Shown piece after piece: positions 20,845 through 29,407 of a stretch of DNA of 37,387 bases. The stretch's first letter is position 1; each line of letters opens with the position of its first letter. The translations under genes were made by a program, and so were the position numbers. The stretch is from the NCBI GenBank assembly GCA_002698225.1, contig NZWD01000036.1:26575-63961 (forward strand), read 5' to 3'. The stretch comes from Methanobacteriota archaeon (GTDB lineage: Archaea > Thermoplasmatota > Poseidoniia > Poseidoniales > Thalassarchaeaceae). Below the pieces are notes generated by a model, which was given only the letters and a program-made list of their open reading frames with translations, ran no database searches and had not been told where the DNA came from.

Positions 20845-20884
20845 ACTACACTTCGTCGTGCTGGCACTGGAACGTGAATACGTT

Positions 20885-23800
20885 ATGGAAAATAAGAAAA
20901 TAATTGCAATGATGCTTACCCTGAGTATGCTGGCGGCAGCTTTCGCCGGATGCCTAGGGGGAGATGATGAGGAACCGGAACCGGAGCCCGAGGCAGTTCT
21001 GGGTTGTATGGACGCTGACGCGAACAACTACAACGCAGATGCTACCGAGGATGATGGGTCGTGTACATACGACCCAGTATGGTCCATCACCCTGGCCCCT
21101 GATATGGGCCCGGTGTGGGTGGAATCTGGCTGGGACCCCATTATCCCCAACCTGAATGCCGGCGAGATGTGCGACGCTATCATCTCGGCGATGACGAAGA
21201 CGGAAGCGAGAGACCAAGTCGTCGACTTCACCAGGGCTTACTACACAAGTAGCCAAGGTGTAATCGGTGGATCAGGATCTGCATCTATCTCCGATGTAAG
21301 CGAGCTAAACGCTGCTGGAACCATCATCGGTGTCCAATCCGGGACAACCTCGGATCTGTATGCTAATGAGAACCTTGCAGACGCGACAACTACAGCTTAC
21401 GAGGACTTCCCCTCAGTCATTGCCGCTTTGAACAACGGCGACGTACATTACGCCATGGGAGACGCACCTGTTCTGTCTCTAGAGGGCGACCTAATGGTCA
21501 CCTTCTCGGATGAGAACTTCGGTCTAGCCGTCCGTGAGACCTCCGGAGAGCTTCTAGCTGCTCTGGATGTCGCTATCGGCGCCGTCGTCGCTTCTGGAGA
21601 ATACGATGTCATTTATGGCGCGTGGTTCGATGGAGCCGTGACGCTTGCTGATGACACAACGGCTGACACTGCTACAGCATACCCTACCCCCTCTGAGGGC
21701 AGCACTCTAACGAGCGCCCTCGAGTCTGGTGATCTTAAGCTGTGCACTGACCCGTTCTACCCTCCGTTTGAGTCCTACGACGCAGACGGTAATGTGGAAG
21801 GCTTCGACGCTGACATGGCTGACGCCATTGTTGACGAGATCGCAGCTCACTACATGGGAACGGACAACCCGATGTTCCAGGCACCCGTCGATACTTCGAT
21901 CAAGATCGGATTCCTGAACCCAATCAGCGGACCAATATCTCAGTTCGCACCGCCCTTCACCTTCGCGGCTGCAGAGGCGATTGCTGACCTGAACGCTGCT
22001 GGTGGAGACTTCTCACTTGTAGAGTTGGACTCCGGATGCGACGGTACAGTTGCTGGTGCAGCTGCTCAGACCCTAGTTGACTCTGGAGTCGTAGCAGTCG
22101 CTGGAGCAGCCTGCTCTGGTGCCTCAATGGGCGCTAACGCAGTTCTGTCCGCAGCTGGTATCCCAATGGTCTCGTACGCGAGCACATCACCTGCTCTGAG
22201 TGACGCAGTAGCTCACCCACACTTCTTCCGTGTGGTGCCAAGCGATGCTATCCAGGGCCAGGCAATGAACGACATGGTCGCTGCTAGTGGAGTATCCAAT
22301 GTTGGATTGATCCACATGGTCAACGCATATGGCGCTGGTCTTGCTGACTCGTTCGTATCTAACTGGGGCGGGGAAGAATTCCTATGCACTAAGGTTGGTT
22401 ACGACGAGACCACTACATCAGATTACTCTGGTATCGTCCAAGGTGTCATCGATGCTGGTTGCGACTCAGTAGTTCTGGTGTCGTACTCCGCAGACGGTGC
22501 TATGATTGTCGAGACAATGGCCTACATGGGTCTGTCCGTGCCGACCTTCGGCGCTGACGGAATCGCTGGTGAGGCTGCTCTCAACGATTACACTGAGCCT
22601 GCTGCCGCTAATGGCCTGCAGGTTACCAAGCCTAGAGCCGCTTCCGGCGCTGGTGACTTCGGTGACCGCTGTGCTGCAGATGATGTCTGCTCGACTGGTA
22701 TCTTCCAGTCCGAGGCATACGACGCTGTAATGATGATCGGACACGCTGCCAACATGGATGGCGGGAACGACATGGCAATGCACCTCAACATGGTCGGTGA
22801 CGGCTACGCTGGTGCTAGTGGTACACACACCTTCCTAGACAACGGAGATGTTGGAGGAGCAGGATACGATGTCTGCACCTTCCACCACGTACCAACATAT
22901 GGTGACTACTTCAACTGCGACATGATGTGGACCGCTACTGATGGTCTAGCTGCCGTCCCATGGGCTGGAGCTACTGTCAAGATCGGATACCTGAACCCAA
23001 TTACTGGACCAATCGCGGTCTACGCACCTGGTTTCACAGCATCCGCTTACATCGGACTCGGCCTAGCCAACACCATCGCCTACAACCAAGGCGTACAGTT
23101 CGAGCTAGTCATGGCTGACTCTGGCTGCAGCGGCGATGTCGCTGCTACTGGTGCACAGACCCTAGTTGACGCTGGAGTTGTCGGTGTTGTCGGAGCTGCT
23201 TGCTCAGGCGCTACAATGGGTGCTAACGCGGTTCTATCCGCAGCCGGTATCCCAATGATATCGTACGCTAGCACATCACCTGCTCTGTCTGATGCTGAGA
23301 CGCACCCACACTTCTTCCGTGTGGTGCCAAGCGATGCATTGCAGGGACAAGCTGTTGACGCTGTAGTCGATGCACACGGCGGTACTGCTGTGGCTTTGCT
23401 ACACATGAACAACGCCTACGGTTCTGGACTCGCTGACTCGTTCAGCGGCTCCTACGGTGCTGACAACCTCTGCGCACAGATTGGCTACGAGGACACACTG
23501 ACCGACTTCTCGTCACAGGTCCAGTCCATTATGGACGCTGGCTGTGACACAGTCGTGATGGTTTCCTACGCTGCTGATGGTGCCGCTATCATCGAGGAAC
23601 TGGCTGCTCAGAGCTTCGCTGGACAGATAATCGGTACTGATGGAATAGCCGAGACAGGAATCGCTGTTGATATGACGGACCAGTCGCTGCTGGATGGCAT
23701 CATCGCCACCAAGCCAGCCTCTGCTACCCCGTCCGAGGTCAGCTTGACCTTCGCGTACCTGTGCTCGATGAATGCTGACTGCGCAGGCGGTATCTTCACA

Positions 23801-24052
23801 GCAGAGTCATTCGATGCTGTGACGATTATGGCTTTCGCTGCCTTCACCATGATGGCCAACCCGGGAATCACAATGTCCCAGGCCATCGCAGGCACGGGAT
23901 CCTCATGGGCCGGAGCTTCTGGCGACATCACGTTCATGGAGAACGGCGATGTTCCAGGAGCAGGGTACTGCGTCGGAACGTTCACTGCTACTGCAGACAC
24001 CGTTTCGTACGATTGCACCCAGCACTGGGACCCAACTAACGGTCTCACCTGA
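20885..24052 (+). CDS. Three-domain amino-acid receptor lipoprotein: permuted SBP_bac_3 domain + two LivJ-type domains
   Basis: Solute-binding lipoprotein, 1055 residues, about three times normal size. Signal peptide and lipobox AAFAGC (C23) are followed by a C-x-D...A-x-N-Y-N...D-D-G-S-C motif (40-60). Residues 66-255 match a family-3 amino-acid binding domain from its second strand onward: GWDPIIPNLNAGEMCDAIIS, MTKTEARDQVVDFTRAYY, VQSGTTSDLY, ALNNGDVHYAMGDAPVL, YDVIYGAWF. The segment that should come first (LKLCTDPFYPPFESYDADG, then GFDADMADAIVDEI) comes after it, at 284-319. R109 and D193, at positions that bind amino acids in this family, are kept. Two LivJ-type domains follow (about 338-690 and 698-1055). 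ATG 20885 is chosen because it starts the signal peptide. The downstream permease and ATPase genes make this the receptor of a Liv transporter. Confidence 0.93.
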   Translation: MENKKIIAMMLTLSMLAAAFAGCLGGDDEEPEPEPEAVLGCMDADANNYNADATEDDGSCTYDPVWSITLAPDMGPVWVESGWDPIIPNLNAGEMCDAIISAMTKTEARDQVVDFTRAYYTSSQGVIGGSGSASISDVSELNAAGTIIGVQSGTTSDLYANENLADATTTAYEDFPSVIAALNNGDVHYAMGDAPVLSLEGDLMVTFSDENFGLAVRETSGELLAALDVAIGAVVASGEYDVIYGAWFDGAVTLADDTTADTATAYPTPSEGSTLTSALESGDLKLCTDPFYPPFESYDADGNVEGFDADMADAIVDEIAAHYMGTDNPMFQAPVDTSIKIGFLNPISGPISQFAPPFTFAAAEAIADLNAAGGDFSLVELDSGCDGTVAGAAAQTLVDSGVVAVAGAACSGASMGANAVLSAAGIPMVSYASTSPALSDAVAHPHFFRVVPSDAIQGQAMNDMVAASGVSNVGLIHMVNAYGAGLADSFVSNWGGEEFLCTKVGYDETTTSDYSGIVQGVIDAGCDSVVLVSYSADGAMIVETMAYMGLSVPTFGADGIAGEAALNDYTEPAAANGLQVTKPRAASGAGDFGDRCAADDVCSTGIFQSEAYDAVMMIGHAANMDGGNDMAMHLNMVGDGYAGASGTHTFLDNGDVGGAGYDVCTFHHVPTYGDYFNCDMMWTATDGLAAVPWAGATVKIGYLNPITGPIAVYAPGFTASAYIGLGLANTIAYNQGVQFELVMADSGCSGDVAATGAQTLVDAGVVGVVGAACSGATMGANAVLSAAGIPMISYASTSPALSDAETHPHFFRVVPSDALQGQAVDAVVDAHGGTAVALLHMNNAYGSGLADSFSGSYGADNLCAQIGYEDTLTDFSSQVQSIMDAGCDTVVMVSYAADGAAIIEELAAQSFAGQIIGTDGIAETGIAVDMTDQSLLDGIIATKPASATPSEVSLTFAYLCSMNADCAGGIFTAESFDAVTIMAFAAFTMMANPGITMSQAIAGTGSSWAGASGDITFMENGDVPGAGYCVGTFTATADTVSYDCTQHWDPTNGLT
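21899..24040 (+). repeat. Tandem internal duplication of the LivJ-domain coding region
   Basis: The unit beginning at 21899 recurs at 22976. The offset is 1077 bases at the start and 1089 in the middle, so a small in-frame indel separates the copies. Conservation is high at DNA level in places: 35 identical bases at 22214-22248 and 23303-23337, within a longer closely similar stretch. Cysteine positions are largely shared between copies. This suggests recent duplication, gene conversion, or strong codon constraint. Confidence 0.85.
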
Positions 24053-24159: not shown

Positions 24160-27100
24160 ATGATTCGTAAGGCGATTGACGATTTCTCGGCACTTCCTAG
24201 GAGCACTAGGAGGTCAATTATCGCAGCCCTGATTCTGTTCGATGCCGCCTATCTAGGTCTGCTCAACGGGCAGGGGCTCCTCAATCAGATTGACAAGATT
24301 GTAGGAGGTGGACTCCCAAACGATTTGGTTTGGCTACTGCAGTTGGTAGAGTCAATCTCAGCAGGCTTCTTTTTCATCAAGATACTGATTGATGATGTGA
24401 AACCCAGCATCGCAAGAAATACAGCAATCCTCCTGTCTCCACTATTCTTACTGGTGATTGTATTCTTATCTCTAGATCTACTGCTTCAGGGCCACAATTT
24501 CGATGACCGAAGCGCTAGAGTCACTCTCGACTTGGTCTCAATCTTGACCAATACACTCACTTGGTCCTCAACCTATCTCGCTATTGCAATCGGTCTGACT
24601 CTGACATACAAAGTCCAGAGATATGGAAACTTCGCCCAATCTGAATTCTTCATGATCGGGATGTTCCTTGCCATAGTGATGGCTTGGAGCGAGTACTACT
24701 ACCCAATTTACGAAGCCCCGAAAGACGGAGTGATTGCTTGGTACCTGCTTCTTTGGACCTTACTTATCGCATTCTTATGCACCGGCATCGCTGGTGTGAT
24801 AATTGACCGTCTCGTTTACCGGGGCTTCAGACTGAGGGATGCAACACCACAAGTCATGATGATTGCATCTCTAGGAGTTGCCCTAATCCTTCGTGCCATC
24901 GTCTACCTTAGATTCACAGCTGCAAGGAATATGTTCGAGCCGGACGCAGATTGGAGAATGCCAACTTTGCGTTGGGAGATACCAACCACCAAATTTAGAC
25001 TCAATCTAGGGAATAGAGACCTAGCTCCAGCTGAACCATTTGTAGATTTTTCGAACAGCACGGTCATCGCCAACGGTGTCTGGGATGAGGGGGAGTCGTT
25101 CACCGACTTGAATGGCGACGGCGCATACAATTCCGCTGAGACATACACCGGGTTCAACTGCGAGCAGACAGGAATCGACGAAGTCACCGGTGAACCCATT
25201 CTGTCTAGGATTGTAACTGAAGGATCAAAGCCTGTAATTGAGATCTATGATGTGACCACCCAATGCGTACAGGCCGCTACGAACTATCCCTACTACAAGG
25301 GAGTCGTACCGGTCGTCGTTTTCATCACGGTGACTCTGCTCTATCTACTCCTCACCAAGACTCGCCTAGGAAGAAGAATGAGAGCAGTCGCAGACAACCC
25401 AGATCTCGCTGCCAGCAGCGGAATCAATGTGGAAAAGGTCCAACTGACCAGTGCCTTCCTCTCGGCGGGCATTTCCGGAATAGGAGGCGCTGTCTTCGCC
25501 ATAACCCTGCGATACAATCCAGAGACGGCATTCGGCCTGCTCCTGCCCTCCTTCGCTGTTATCGTCTTAGGTACGATAGGCTCGATACCGGGAGCAATTT
25601 TCGGCTCGCTGATTGTTGGTTTCGTACGAGCGTTATCATCTCCGGTACTGATTGGCATAGGCCTTCCGTTAGGAAGATCGAACTACACCGCTCTAGACGC
25701 GGTGATGCCCTACATATTCCTTGTAGCGATTCTGATGATATTGCCCGAGGGAATCGGGGATGCATGGGAAAAGTGGAAGATTGAGAGGCTGCGTAATCGT
25801 AAACCGGAGACAGATCAATCTAGGAAGACTGCGGGAATACTGGCAATCCTACCGACCGGTATATTGGGACTCCATCACTTGAAGCGTAACCGCCCGGACC
25901 GTACGGTTACCTTCTCCGCCATTGCAATCGGCTCGTATGTGATGCACAGAATCGGCAGGTTCGTCGGCAAGAATTCGTTTGCAGAAGGAGCATGCGCCGA
26001 CGCCTGCTTGGACAATCCACTTGCAGACACCAATCTTGCTCATCTCACTGGGAGAGATGATGGAACACTCCTGGTGGAAGACTCTCCGTATTTCTCTGAG
26101 ACAGTTACTGAACTGGACTCCACTTGGTTTGAGCTTATGCAAACAGAGTTGCAAGTAGCGAATCTGATAGTAGACATCGGGGAATTCGTCTGGCCAGTCA
26201 TTCCACTGTTGCTTTGGGCCTATGCTGCTAACGAGGGGAGCAAACTGCTTTCCGGGTCTGACTTGAATCCGGAAAAAAGGCCATCTTCCTCCAGTAATCC
26301 ATTCGGTTGGCTCAGATTACCTAACTTTTCTGAACTCAGAAACTCATGGTCGGAGTTGGATAGGAAGCACAAGTCACTTGTCGCGAAAATAAAGAATAGA
26401 TTGACTAAATTATTCAATCGTTTGACTTCGAAAATATCTGATTCGTCTCTCAACAGGAATACTAGCCTGCGATTGTACGGTCGAGAGGGAGTTGCCGGTT
26501 CGTGGATTACCTTCGGTGTGCTGATGTTCATTCTTCTGCTGTTCATCTGGTGGCTGCCAATCAGCGACGATGTGGAGTCGATGTCTTGGAGCAAGGCTTT
26601 CCAAATGTCGAATGTATTGCTGACTCTATCAATCTTCATTCTGATGGCATTCTCTCTCAACCTCCATACCGGCGTCACTGGGATGGTAAACTTCGGTGTC
26701 ATCTTCTTCGTCGGTATTGGAGCAATCACTGTTGGCGTCCTGACTGCTCCACAAGAGATGCATGGCTACGGCTGGGATGTTCTTCCTGCGGTAATAGTTG
26801 CAGTTCTACTATCTGCTGCATTTGGATGGGCTCTGGCATATCCGACTGCGAGACTGCGTATGGATTACTTCGCAATCGTCACTATCTCTTTGGGTGAGAT
26901 AGTCAGAGTTCTTCTGGCCGGAGAACCTCTGCTACGTTCTGGCCCGATAGCATCAGCACTTGGTATAGGAAACTATACTCTGCCTCTGAAGAAGTGGTGG
27001 TTCTGCGGATCCGATATCGATATCGGCGATGGAACGCTCTACCTGAGCGCCGATGACTGCAGGGATGATGTACTGCTGTCTTCTCCTGCCACATCGGTTA

Positions 27101-27903
27101 GCGACTTACTCAATCTTGGTGACCCTGCTCCCTACTTCCTACTACTCGCAGTGCTCGGGATAGTTTGTGTGTTCGCAGTATGGCAACTCCTTGAGTCTCT
27201 TATGGCCTCTCCATGGGGTAGAATACTGAAGGCAATCAGAGAGGACGAAGATGTGGCACAGCACCATGGCCACAATGTCCTCACTCACAAGGCCTCTAGT
27301 CTTGCCCTAGGAGCCGCAATAGCTGCCTTGGCAGGGGCATTCTGGGCTTGGAAGTTGACAGGCTTCGAGCCCACATTTATGGCTCCAGCAAAATCGACCT
27401 TCCTTGTGTGGGCAGCGTTCGTTATTGGTGGGGCGGCAAACAATCGAGGTATGATTATCGGAGCATCAATTATCGTACTAATGGAATTCGTATTCAATGT
27501 CCTAGTGGCAGCCAGCTCGCCCGACCTGCCACTGTATTCAACAGCAAACAGAATTGACAGTCTGTTCGAATGGATCGTTACCGATCAATGGGCTGTCACT
27601 AAGGCATTCCTGATTCTGACCGCAATCGGTATCGCAATTAGGTCCAGGGGAGTTGCTGAGACCGGTTTATGCGGTGTAGCAGTATTTGCATTCACAGCAC
27701 TGATGTTGCAAGCTAAATCCATCGAAGAGGTAACAAATTTAGCAGGAGAGGTCTCAATCGCGGGAGCAAACATGGCCTATGTCAAGTTAATGCTGGTCGG
27801 CTCCTTGATGTTGTTCTCACTCAAGTACAACCCGAAGGGTTTGCTGCCAGAGGTGCCGAGCAGACCCGCGAGACCCACTGATTCAGGAGGTGAGTCGGAA
27901 TGA
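24160..27903 (+). CDS. Fused LivH-LivM branched-chain amino-acid ABC permease
   Basis: One 1247-residue membrane protein carries both permease subunits. The first 135 residues add extra hydrophobic segments. Residues about 135-530 are LivH-like: AIGLTLTYKVQRYGNFAQSEFFMIG, TRLGRRMRAVADNPDLAASSGI, and SFAVIVLGTIGSIPGAIFGS. A linker of about 250 residues contains two more hydrophobic stretches. Residues about 800-1210 are LivM-like: FSLNLHTGVTGMVNFGVIFF, YPTARLRMDYFAIVTISLGEI, SPWGRILKAIREDEDVAQHHG and YNPKGLLPE. The long external loop in the LivH half (about residues 306-330) includes WDEGESFTDLNGDGAYNS, an EF-hand-like calcium loop. LivH and LivM normally come from separate genes. The 3' end overlaps livG by four bases (ATGA). 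Confidence 0.93.
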   Translation: MIRKAIDDFSALPRSTRRSIIAALILFDAAYLGLLNGQGLLNQIDKIVGGGLPNDLVWLLQLVESISAGFFFIKILIDDVKPSIARNTAILLSPLFLLVIVFLSLDLLLQGHNFDDRSARVTLDLVSILTNTLTWSSTYLAIAIGLTLTYKVQRYGNFAQSEFFMIGMFLAIVMAWSEYYYPIYEAPKDGVIAWYLLLWTLLIAFLCTGIAGVIIDRLVYRGFRLRDATPQVMMIASLGVALILRAIVYLRFTAARNMFEPDADWRMPTLRWEIPTTKFRLNLGNRDLAPAEPFVDFSNSTVIANGVWDEGESFTDLNGDGAYNSAETYTGFNCEQTGIDEVTGEPILSRIVTEGSKPVIEIYDVTTQCVQAATNYPYYKGVVPVVVFITVTLLYLLLTKTRLGRRMRAVADNPDLAASSGINVEKVQLTSAFLSAGISGIGGAVFAITLRYNPETAFGLLLPSFAVIVLGTIGSIPGAIFGSLIVGFVRALSSPVLIGIGLPLGRSNYTALDAVMPYIFLVAILMILPEGIGDAWEKWKIERLRNRKPETDQSRKTAGILAILPTGILGLHHLKRNRPDRTVTFSAIAIGSYVMHRIGRFVGKNSFAEGACADACLDNPLADTNLAHLTGRDDGTLLVEDSPYFSETVTELDSTWFELMQTELQVANLIVDIGEFVWPVIPLLLWAYAANEGSKLLSGSDLNPEKRPSSSSNPFGWLRLPNFSELRNSWSELDRKHKSLVAKIKNRLTKLFNRLTSKISDSSLNRNTSLRLYGREGVAGSWITFGVLMFILLLFIWWLPISDDVESMSWSKAFQMSNVLLTLSIFILMAFSLNLHTGVTGMVNFGVIFFVGIGAITVGVLTAPQEMHGYGWDVLPAVIVAVLLSAAFGWALAYPTARLRMDYFAIVTISLGEIVRVLLAGEPLLRSGPIASALGIGNYTLPLKKWWFCGSDIDIGDGTLYLSADDCRDDVLLSSPATSVSDLLNLGDPAPYFLLLAVLGIVCVFAVWQLLESLMASPWGRILKAIREDEDVAQHHGHNVLTHKASSLALGAAIAALAGAFWAWKLTGFEPTFMAPAKSTFLVWAAFVIGGAANNRGMIIGASIIVLMEFVFNVLVAASSPDLPLYSTANRIDSLFEWIVTDQWAVTKAFLILTAIGIAIRSRGVAETGLCGVAVFAFTALMLQAKSIEEVTNLAGEVSIAGANMAYVKLMLVGSLMLFSLKYNPKGLLPEVPSRPARPTDSGGESE

Positions 27904-28697
27904 GCTCGGTGTTGAAGGTCGACGGCCTGAGGAAGGAGTTCGGTGGTCTCGTGGCCGTCAACGATGTTTCCTTTGAGATAGGAGAGGGTGAGTTCGTCGG
28001 ACTAATTGGTCCGAACGGTTGCGGTAAGTCGACCACCTTCAACTGCATCAGTGGTCTTCTGGAGCAGACGGCAGGATCTATCGAGATGTTCGGCGAGGAT
28101 GTCTCCTATCTGCGCCCCGATCAGATACAGAATCTTGGTATGACAAGGACTTTCCAGCACACAAGGTTATGGCGTCAGATGACGGTAATCGAGAACCTAC
28201 TGGTTCCGCCTAGAGGTCAGTTCGGATCGAACATTGCAGACCAAATTAGAGCAGTACTGACTCCTGGGTCCAACCCTAGCGAGACAGAGAGGTTGGAGAA
28301 GGCCTATTCTGTATTGGATCAATTAGAGGTGCCACACATGGCTCTGAATCTGACCAGTGAACTATCTGGCGGCCAGAGCAAATTGGTCGACATAGGCCGC
28401 TCGATGATGGGAGACCCGAAGCTACTGCTACTGGATGAACCGGTCGCAGGAGTAGCCGGCCCTCTGGCCATGAAAATATTCAACAATCTCAGGAACATAG
28501 TGAATGAGACCGGCATTTCCATTCTTATCATCGAGCACAACATGGACTTCATCCTAAGACAAGGAGTCGACCGCATTATCGTAATGAATGAGGGTGAAAT
28601 CCTGATGCAAGGAACCCCTGATGAGGTCAGAGGCAATAGGGAAGTTATCGAAGCCTATCTCGGAGCCTCTGGAGAACCACAGGAGGAGTTAGAATGA
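27900..28697 (+). CDS. livG: ABC transporter ATP-binding protein LivG
   Basis: ATPase subunit of the Liv transporter, 265 residues. Walker A is GPNGCGKST, the ABC signature is LSGGQSKLVDIGRSMM, Walker B is LLLLDEPVAGV, and the switch His is in ILIIEHNMDFIL. The sequences LGMTRTFQHTRLWRQMTVIENLLV and DEPVAGV are characteristic of LivG rather than other ATPases. Start and stop overlap the permease gene and livF by four bases each, so the three are translated together. Confidence 0.95.
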   Translation: MSSVLKVDGLRKEFGGLVAVNDVSFEIGEGEFVGLIGPNGCGKSTTFNCISGLLEQTAGSIEMFGEDVSYLRPDQIQNLGMTRTFQHTRLWRQMTVIENLLVPPRGQFGSNIADQIRAVLTPGSNPSETERLEKAYSVLDQLEVPHMALNLTSELSGGQSKLVDIGRSMMGDPKLLLLDEPVAGVAGPLAMKIFNNLRNIVNETGISILIIEHNMDFILRQGVDRIIVMNEGEILMQGTPDEVRGNREVIEAYLGASGEPQEELE

Positions 28698-29407
28698 GTA
28701 GAGTATTGGAAATTACAGACCTCCAAGCAGGGTATGGCTCAGTCCAGATTCTGCATGGCATCGACATACATGTCGATGAGGGAGAATTCGTCACTATCAT
28801 CGGCCCCAATGGGTGCGGAAAATCAACTCTCATCAAGGCCATCTTCGGTATCGCGACATACTACTCTGGAGGAGTCAAGTACCGCGGTTCTGAGGTCTCT
28901 GGATGGAGGACAGATCAGTTGGTGAACCATGGCATAGCCTATGTCCCCCAGGTAGACAATGTGTTCCCTTCTCTATCAGTCATGGAGAACCTGCAGATGG
29001 GGGGAAACTCCCTCGATAACTCGACTCTGAATGATAGAATCGAAAGATCTCTGGAGATGTTCCCCGACCTGCGTGACAGAGTTCACGATGTAGCGGCCTC
29101 TCTGTCCGGAGGAGAGCGACAGATGCTGGCGATTTCTAGGGCTCTAATTTCTAATCCGACATTCCTGCTGTTAGACGAGCCTACAGCTGCCCTCTCGCCA
29201 CTCTATCAGCAGCAGATTATCGAGCGCATAGACTCGCTTCGCGAGCAGGGAATCACAGTTCTCATCGTTGAGCAGAATGCTCGCCTCTCGCTATCTCGCT
29301 CGGATCGAGGATACATCATGGCCAACGGCAAGATTGTCCATACGGGAGATGCTCAGCATATCCTGACGGACCCTGAAATCGGCGAGTACTTCCTAGGTTC
29401 TCACTGA
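28694..29407 (+). CDS. livF: ABC transporter ATP-binding protein LivF
   Basis: Second ATPase subunit, 237 residues. Walker A is GPNGCGKSTLIKAIFG, the signature is LSGGERQMLAISRALI, Walker B is FLLLDEPTAAL, and the switch region is VLIVEQNARLSL. The segment HGIAYVPQVDNVFPSLSVMENL is the LivF-type Q-loop. It closes the operon; the convergent PPC-domain gene ends four bases beyond its stop. With LivG it would form a heterodimer driving the fused LivH-LivM permease. Confidence 0.95.
   Translation: MSRVLEITDLQAGYGSVQILHGIDIHVDEGEFVTIIGPNGCGKSTLIKAIFGIATYYSGGVKYRGSEVSGWRTDQLVNHGIAYVPQVDNVFPSLSVMENLQMGGNSLDNSTLNDRIERSLEMFPDLRDRVHDVAASLSGGERQMLAISRALISNPTFLLLDEPTAALSPLYQQQIIERIDSLREQGITVLIVEQNARLSLSRSDRGYIMANGKIVHTGDAQHILTDPEIGEYFLGSH

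Follow-up and report, generated by a model that had tools for sequence, protein, structure and literature searches.

Evidence for a naturally permuted family-3 amino-acid binding domain in a three-headed archaeal receptor, with relatives broken at other points of the chain

The stretch of DNA analysed here (the window) comprises 37,387 nucleotides of a Thalassarchaeaceae genome (assembly GCA_002698225.1, contig NZWD01000036.1, positions 26,575 to 63,961). It carries a gene for a receptor lipoprotein, followed on the same strand by genes for a permease and two ATPases. The features on which the analysis bears, with the basis of each in brackets, are:

20858-24052 (+): three-headed receptor lipoprotein, 1064 aa (open reading frame list, Pfam)
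20885-20953 (+): lipoprotein-type signal with the end AAFAGC (by eye)
21101-21631 (+): segment B of the permuted domain, Pfam profile positions 40-131 (Pfam, AncQR alignment, model)
21632-21724 (+): joint, a linker connecting the former C-terminus with the former N-terminus, GAVTLADDTTADTATAYPTPSEGSTLTSALE (linker comparison, dN/dS)
21725-21856 (+): segment A, strand 1 and helix 1, LKLCTDPFYPPFE ... GFDADMADAIVDEI, profile positions 1-37 (Pfam, AncQR alignment, model)
21893-24049 (+), outer limits approximate: two LIV-type periplasmic binding domains in tandem (Pfam)
24160-27903 (+): permease of branched-chain amino acid type, 1247 aa, with BPD_transp_2 in three stretches (Pfam)
27900-28697 (+): LivG-type ATPase, ABC_tran and BCA_ABC_TP_C (Pfam)
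28694-29407 (+): LivF-type ATPase, ABC_tran (Pfam)

The receptor frame is intact and starts with GTG; an alternative ATG lies at 20885, and it is from this codon that the residue numbers of the initial annotation count. Pfam gives the protein a family-3 domain, permuted as described below, followed by two LIV-type (Peripla_BP_6/ANF_receptor) domains, matched in two stretches each at E 1.2e-58 (Peripla_BP_6) and E 4.3e-64 (ANF_receptor). We take the AAFAGC end of the signal, recognised by eye, to be a lipobox. A GCMDADANNYNADATEDDGSC motif at 21002-21064 follows the lipid anchor and precedes the permuted domain; similar motifs stand elsewhere in relatives, for example C-terminal of the permuted domain in L067. 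Peripla_BP_6/ANF_receptor domains are found beside a BPD_transp_2 permease and LIV-type ATPases, as in the LIV (HAAT) importers, from whose receptors the window's protein differs by its additional permuted family-3 domain. The permease is probably a LivH-LivM fusion, and the ATPase at 28694-29407 would be LivF, judging by its position. A long middle segment was observed in the permease.

Segment B contains strand 2, the WDPIIPNL motif, lobe II and the way back to lobe I, ending with YDVIYGAWFD, and segment A has been relocated to the end of the permuted domain. When the whole receptor was searched with PF00497 (SBP_bac_3), it scored E 3.9e-24 and 85.3 bits, against a cut-off of 26.4, in two matches that lie in one frame in swapped order: profile positions 40-131 at 21110-21631, then positions 1-37 at 21734-21844. 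AncQR, whose structure has been solved, aligned to the native domain in two pieces (query 20-186 to chain 57-231, and query 220-257 to chain 10-47) and to the rotated domain in a single collinear stretch (17-245 to 10-231). Since the native domain does not follow the canonical SBP_bac_3 order, in which strand 1 comes first, and rotation restores collinearity, we file it as a circularly permuted homologue and not as an ordinary member of SBP_bac_3. The initial annotation had proposed this permuted order, with a cut between helix 1 and strand 2, nothing duplicated and no obvious loss, and the swapped Pfam matches and the AncQR alignments agree with it on each of these points; the motifs and the 35-residue linker that it named also lie where it had placed them. 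These results support the view that about 21101-21856 encode a family-3 amino-acid binding domain whose chain has undergone natural circular permutation. In Pfam, the permuted piece was matched by PF00497 and by no type I binding-protein family. After helix 1, at about 21857-21892, there is a short NPMF-x-x-PV stretch, seen by eye at the equivalent place in other proteins with the window's order, which may be a leftover of strand 2 such as the trimming of a tandem would leave.

An AlphaFold2 prediction, made with the window domain and 66 rows of type 1 (the window's break, between helix 1 and strand 2), gave one confident domain (pLDDT 91.7, pTM 0.86), with strand 1 (model residues 221-226) and helix 1 (245-262) both confident. 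VIA-align, a sequential aligner, matched model residues 8-194 to family-3 structures with Z up to 16.9 (5eyf). Its match to the glutamine-binding protein 1wdn starts at residue 40, so that the first strand and helix are left unpartnered in sequential order, as permutation predicts; in 5t0w, 3vv5, 1ii5 and 2pvu it starts nearer the start of the chain, these ranges giving the first and last residues only. Judging from this model, the permuted domain would fold as an ordinary two-lobed clamshell with a cleft formed by both pieces. Ligand-residue equivalents, placed by what we take to be the ligand-residue numbering of LAO, are invariant in the 66 type-1 rows: S39, T42, R47, T92 and D131 in the first piece, and D227 and Y230 in the second. 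Several of the LAO residues also occur as mutated positions in the titles of solved structures. R47 and D131 (numbering of alignment A3) are the R109 and D193 whose retention had been noted from the outset. In family-3 proteins, the arginine binds the carboxylate of the ligand and the aspartate its amino group. Comparison of the window with eight relatives gave a dN/dS of 0.05-0.17 for both pieces in every case that allowed computation (two of the eight were saturated in segment A); for the linker, three relatives gave 0.06-0.14, the near-identical L087 gave zero and four were saturated. Both pieces of the permuted domain are under purifying selection.

To what extent the order recurs was examined at two levels. 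Among 145 genomes of the window's order searched at E 1e-5, 48 matched (some partially or at contig ends) and 97 did not, and the receptor is therefore not universal. A scan of species genomes, seeded by 12 type-1 rows and one canonical row, yielded 80 loci, which were typed by the order of their matches to a canonical homologue. The window's order, which the initial annotation had suggested looking for in related genomes, is that of 65 of them, at 57-98% identity to the window; since the seeds were mainly type 1, the shares among the 80 loci are no census. The other 15 comprise two canonical proteins of the same family (L083 and L084), five loci cut by a contig end and assigned no type (L111, L148, L149, L151 and L159), two single proteins and one tandem of a second type described below (L154 and L156; L147), and five other canonical or partial matches (L153, L155, L158, L161 and L162). 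All eight type-1 receptors scanned show SBP_bac_3 together with two-stretch LIV-type matches; both family-3 pieces pass E 1e-5 alone in five of the eight, and the larger piece only in three. In some type-1 loci the match of segment A extends to about position 132-145 of the canonical query, which we judge to be a chance run into the LIV-type domain. An origin of the window's copy by deletion, from relatives with two complete family-3 domains, had been named as the case against permutation; no second complete family-3 domain was found in the type-1 frames mapped. The names of L089, L106, L108, L118 and L119 are presumably those of single-cell isolates, to judge by their style.

Two further breaks were found in relatives. 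In type 2, lobe II comes first and the break lies before its first strand; in type 3, the break lies before the last two helices. Type 2 occurs in three Asgard-phylum proteins, L154, L156 and L196, and in L183-L185, which come from a different family within the window's class, and type 3 in L197 (1111-2106, reverse strand), from a genome in L154's phylum (Asgard). According to Pfam, L154 neighbours a permease with a YCF48-like propeller, and L197 also adjoins a gene with such a propeller. Neighbours like that of L154 were seen by eye beside L156, L183-L185 and L196. In a Heimdallarchaeote, a 658-aa frame (L147, 4590-6563) contains two type-2 units in tandem. A complete canonical domain can be read in the middle of that frame. 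A type-2 structure prediction, based on an alignment of four sequences, reached a pLDDT of 37.9.

The family to which the window belongs also has divergent type-2 proteins, among them a copy in the window's genome with a weak Pfam match (34 bits); their ligand residues seem, by eye, to have been lost, and they form a long branch in the tree. L189 (3251-7275, G000:C28, in the window's genome) codes for a divergent type-2 family-3 protein of 331 aa with a C-terminal hydrophobic segment; its gene is placed back to back with one that encodes a fusion of a YCF48-like propeller and an ABC permease (752 aa) and is followed by an ABC ATPase gene. In an Asgard-phylum genome, a 652-aa frame (L200, 736-2691, reverse strand) holds two canonical family-3 domains in tandem. 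In the canonical L083 and L084, the domain forms part of a large protein that looks secreted and contains cysteine-rich repeats, for example CDNGEEIPASWENDGEADCYDGSDE.

A profile of the joint (A2, 14 rows) was used to search more widely. In the window's class, 81 of 321 genomes matched at E 1e-8; the 78 matches at 1.5e-41 or better fall in 71 genomes of family f1 and six of f3, as counted by match and not by mapped order. In Thermoplasmatota, 26 of 282 genomes matched at E 1e-18, all of them f1 or f3, and among the Asgard-phylum genomes 15 of 222 matched at E 1e-10, four of these at full length. Bacteria gave a type-2 protein with an unlike linker in two of 168 genomes of the phylum to which L162's genome, a Thermoleophilia MAG, belongs. 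These proteins (L248, 1090-1968; L249, 1021-1968) are lipoproteins, and by eye their genes are preceded by a canonical family-3 gene and followed by an ABC permease-like gene. No such protein was obtained from 168 genomes of the phylum of L155's genome, a Deltaproteobacteria MAG, in a search run without a positive control. A type-2 query matched 37 plasmid records, none of them with at least 80% coverage in one place, and a viral structure library gave three matches at E 0.001 or better.

In order to relate the breaks to each other, we compared linkers and built trees of the rotated domains. The core of the window's linker scored above all 5000 shuffles in each of the comparisons with L183, L184 and L185 (type 2) and L197 (type 3). 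With Asgard type 2, shuffling gave p 0.03-0.12 for the core and 0.01-0.04 for the full linker of the window, and 0.06-0.17 and 0.0004-0.007, respectively, for that of L144; given this weak likeness, our inference that the joint arose only once among the archaeal types is insecure. In a tree of 46 rows, the archaeal permuted rows together with L083 and L084 lie on one side of a branch supported at 100/99, and the same branch received 99/92 in a 33-row tree with a wider outgroup and without divergent type 2. Of the 65 type-1 loci, 23 entered the former tree and eight the latter, in each case beside the window; seven long-branch rows (L161, L190, L155, L158, L191, L186 and L199) were omitted from the 46-row tree, and L161 and six divergent type-2 rows from the 33-row tree. 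L162 (a partial match), the five loci cut by a contig end and L192-L195 (which repeat others) were excluded as rows, as was L102, from the tree units only, and L190 is represented in the trees by one of three proteins of the same name. A grouping of the permuted rows without L083 and L084 was rejected (AU p 0.00285, for a group named after the earlier tree had been seen), and so was the joining of bacterial type 2 with the archaeal permuted rows (AU p 0.0185). The bacterial type 2 is apparently a separate permutation event; since the two bacteria share the type-2 break and have an unlike linker, the same break can arise repeatedly.

The position of L083 and L084 among permuted proteins bears on the history of the joint. 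On the C side, the match to the joint profile continues beyond the domain into the linker, to position 48 in L083 and 44 in L084, and stops by position 37 in the ten other single-domain canonical proteins that match there; an eleventh had no clear match on this side, and in the tandem L200 the profile matches across that protein's own junction. On the N side, it enters the linker in L083 (from 48) and L084 (from 40), and since two Asgard-phylum canonical proteins also start at 49, this side is less telling. L161 and L162 were left out of this comparison. L083 and L084 have apparently returned to canonical order from a tandem, a reading of the sequences that rests on rooting by the canonical outgroup; their longer joint matches may also reflect closer kinship to the profile proteins alone.

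Taken as a whole, we consider it probable that the window's domain is a permutant with a clamshell fold and a receptor role, and that its family began as a tandem which was trimmed to types 1-3 and, in one case, back again. Two family-3 copies would have been joined head to tail in an archaeal ancestor, fixing the joint, and later shortening of the ends, at sites that differed between lineages, would have produced type 2, type 3 and type 1; in one pair of relatives, L083 and L084, trimming would have restored the original order. In the window's protein, the chain runs from strand 2 through lobe II to lobe I, and on through the conserved linker to strand 1 and helix 1. The ligand of the permuted domain would be an amino acid, bound in a cleft to which both pieces contribute, and the domain would serve, alongside the two LIV-type domains of the lipoprotein, as receptor for the adjacent LivHM-G-F importer. 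A tandem is likely to be the kind of intermediate through which permutation proceeds, and since one exists in L147, deletion from a tandem and circular permutation would here be one process. A broader proposition is that the archaeal family-3 domains amount to an almost circular chain, with a joint that became fixed a single time and ends that have since shifted between three or more breaks, a canonical return included, by way of tandems, one of them still extant in a Heimdallarchaeote; bacteria would have reached one same break independently. We regard its chances as evenly balanced; if true, it would constitute a natural permutation series within one protein family.

Each break might instead have arisen separately from a canonical protein, through its own duplication and trimming. 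The permutation would be no less real, the likeness of linkers would be due to convergence or low-complexity drift, and L083 and L084 would simply have kept the ancestral order. Such a history would account for the bacterial type 2, which looks like an event of its own with its unlike linker, and it fits the weak match of the Asgard linkers to the window's and the existence of a canonical tandem duplication (L200). However, the window's linker resembles those of L183-L185 and L197 more closely than shuffled sequences do, and the archaeal permuted rows cluster with only two canonical proteins nested among them, and we think separate origins unlikely, if worth keeping in mind. It is also conceivable that two half genes were re-fused in the other order, by fission and fusion instead of tandem duplication; against this stand the tandem of permuted units in L147 and the joint traces on both sides of L083 and L084, which fit a tandem, and we find this route improbable.

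As to function, the permuted domain could be a non-binding structural spacer reaching from the membrane anchor to the two LIV-type domains. The divergent type-2 copy in the window's genome, with its 34 bits in Pfam and ligand residues that seem by eye to be missing, suggests that loss of these residues may occur in the family, but in the 66 type-1 rows the equivalents are invariant and dN/dS is about 0.1, which leaves a mere spacer with little probability. A canonical gene mis-joined in assembly or binning might be suspected in a draft genome that is 68% complete and lies in 45 contigs, yet the window's order stands in one open frame and recurs at 65 loci from many assemblies, at 57-98% identity. 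We rejected this explanation as next to impossible, since an order common to 65 of the 80 loci is no assembly error.

Family-3 proteins (SBP_bac_3, PF00497; GlnBP, LAO, AncQR and AncCDT-1) are homologous to the permuted domain over its whole length, and with family-3 structures the larger piece aligns and the ligand-residue equivalents are kept; what sets the window's domain apart is the rotated chain, the conserved linker joining the old ends and the fusion to two LIV-type domains. In GlnPQ, the domains SBD1 and SBD2 are fused to a permease. As two family-3 domains in tandem (6h30), they provide a natural C-to-N joint, although both units are canonical and both are retained, unlike in the window's domain. 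As a rule, a circular permutation is recognised from two proteins, the intermediates having been lost. Here several breaks, a tandem and an apparent reversal all occur in relatives, so that the duplication-and-trimming model becomes testable on real intermediates. The same route, a tandem duplication with subsequent trimming of both ends, has been proposed for saposin and swaposin (PMC3320104), and the present family adds several breaks and an apparent return around a similar joint.

A natural permutation is also known in TpMglB-2 (Tp0684), a type I sugar-binding protein and tethered ABC-transporter component that still binds sugar (PMC4990184); its authors leave open that the permuted part was derived from another gene and raise a benefit for tethering as a possibility. 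The window's domain belongs to family 3 and does not show the type I sugar-binding fold ('type Ic') of TpMglB-2, from which it also differs in that both of its pieces are clear family-3 homologues. Permutation relocates the attachment points around lobe I, with a possible advantage for tethering. Among the matches listed from open-access literature on permutation and on Thalassarchaeaceae transporters, we found no permuted family-3 binding protein, in line with the initial annotation, which knew of no such permuted domain described in an archaeal transporter receptor. Evolution seems to have opened and resealed this single fold repeatedly. The family also indicates that the clamshell fold, as used for engineered sensors, accepts several new termini in nature, which offers designers ready break points.

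Finally, livK and aapJ have been reported among the most transcribed genes of Thalassarchaeaceae MAGs (PMC9723583). We infer that the livK named there is the gene of the window's receptor, and the receptor whose picture is corrected here may be one of the more strongly transcribed receptors of abundant marine archaea. The window's family also contains canonical, longer, AapJ-like family-3 proteins of about 400-550 aa (L071-L078), in which the PF00497 match is confined to the first two thirds of the profile.
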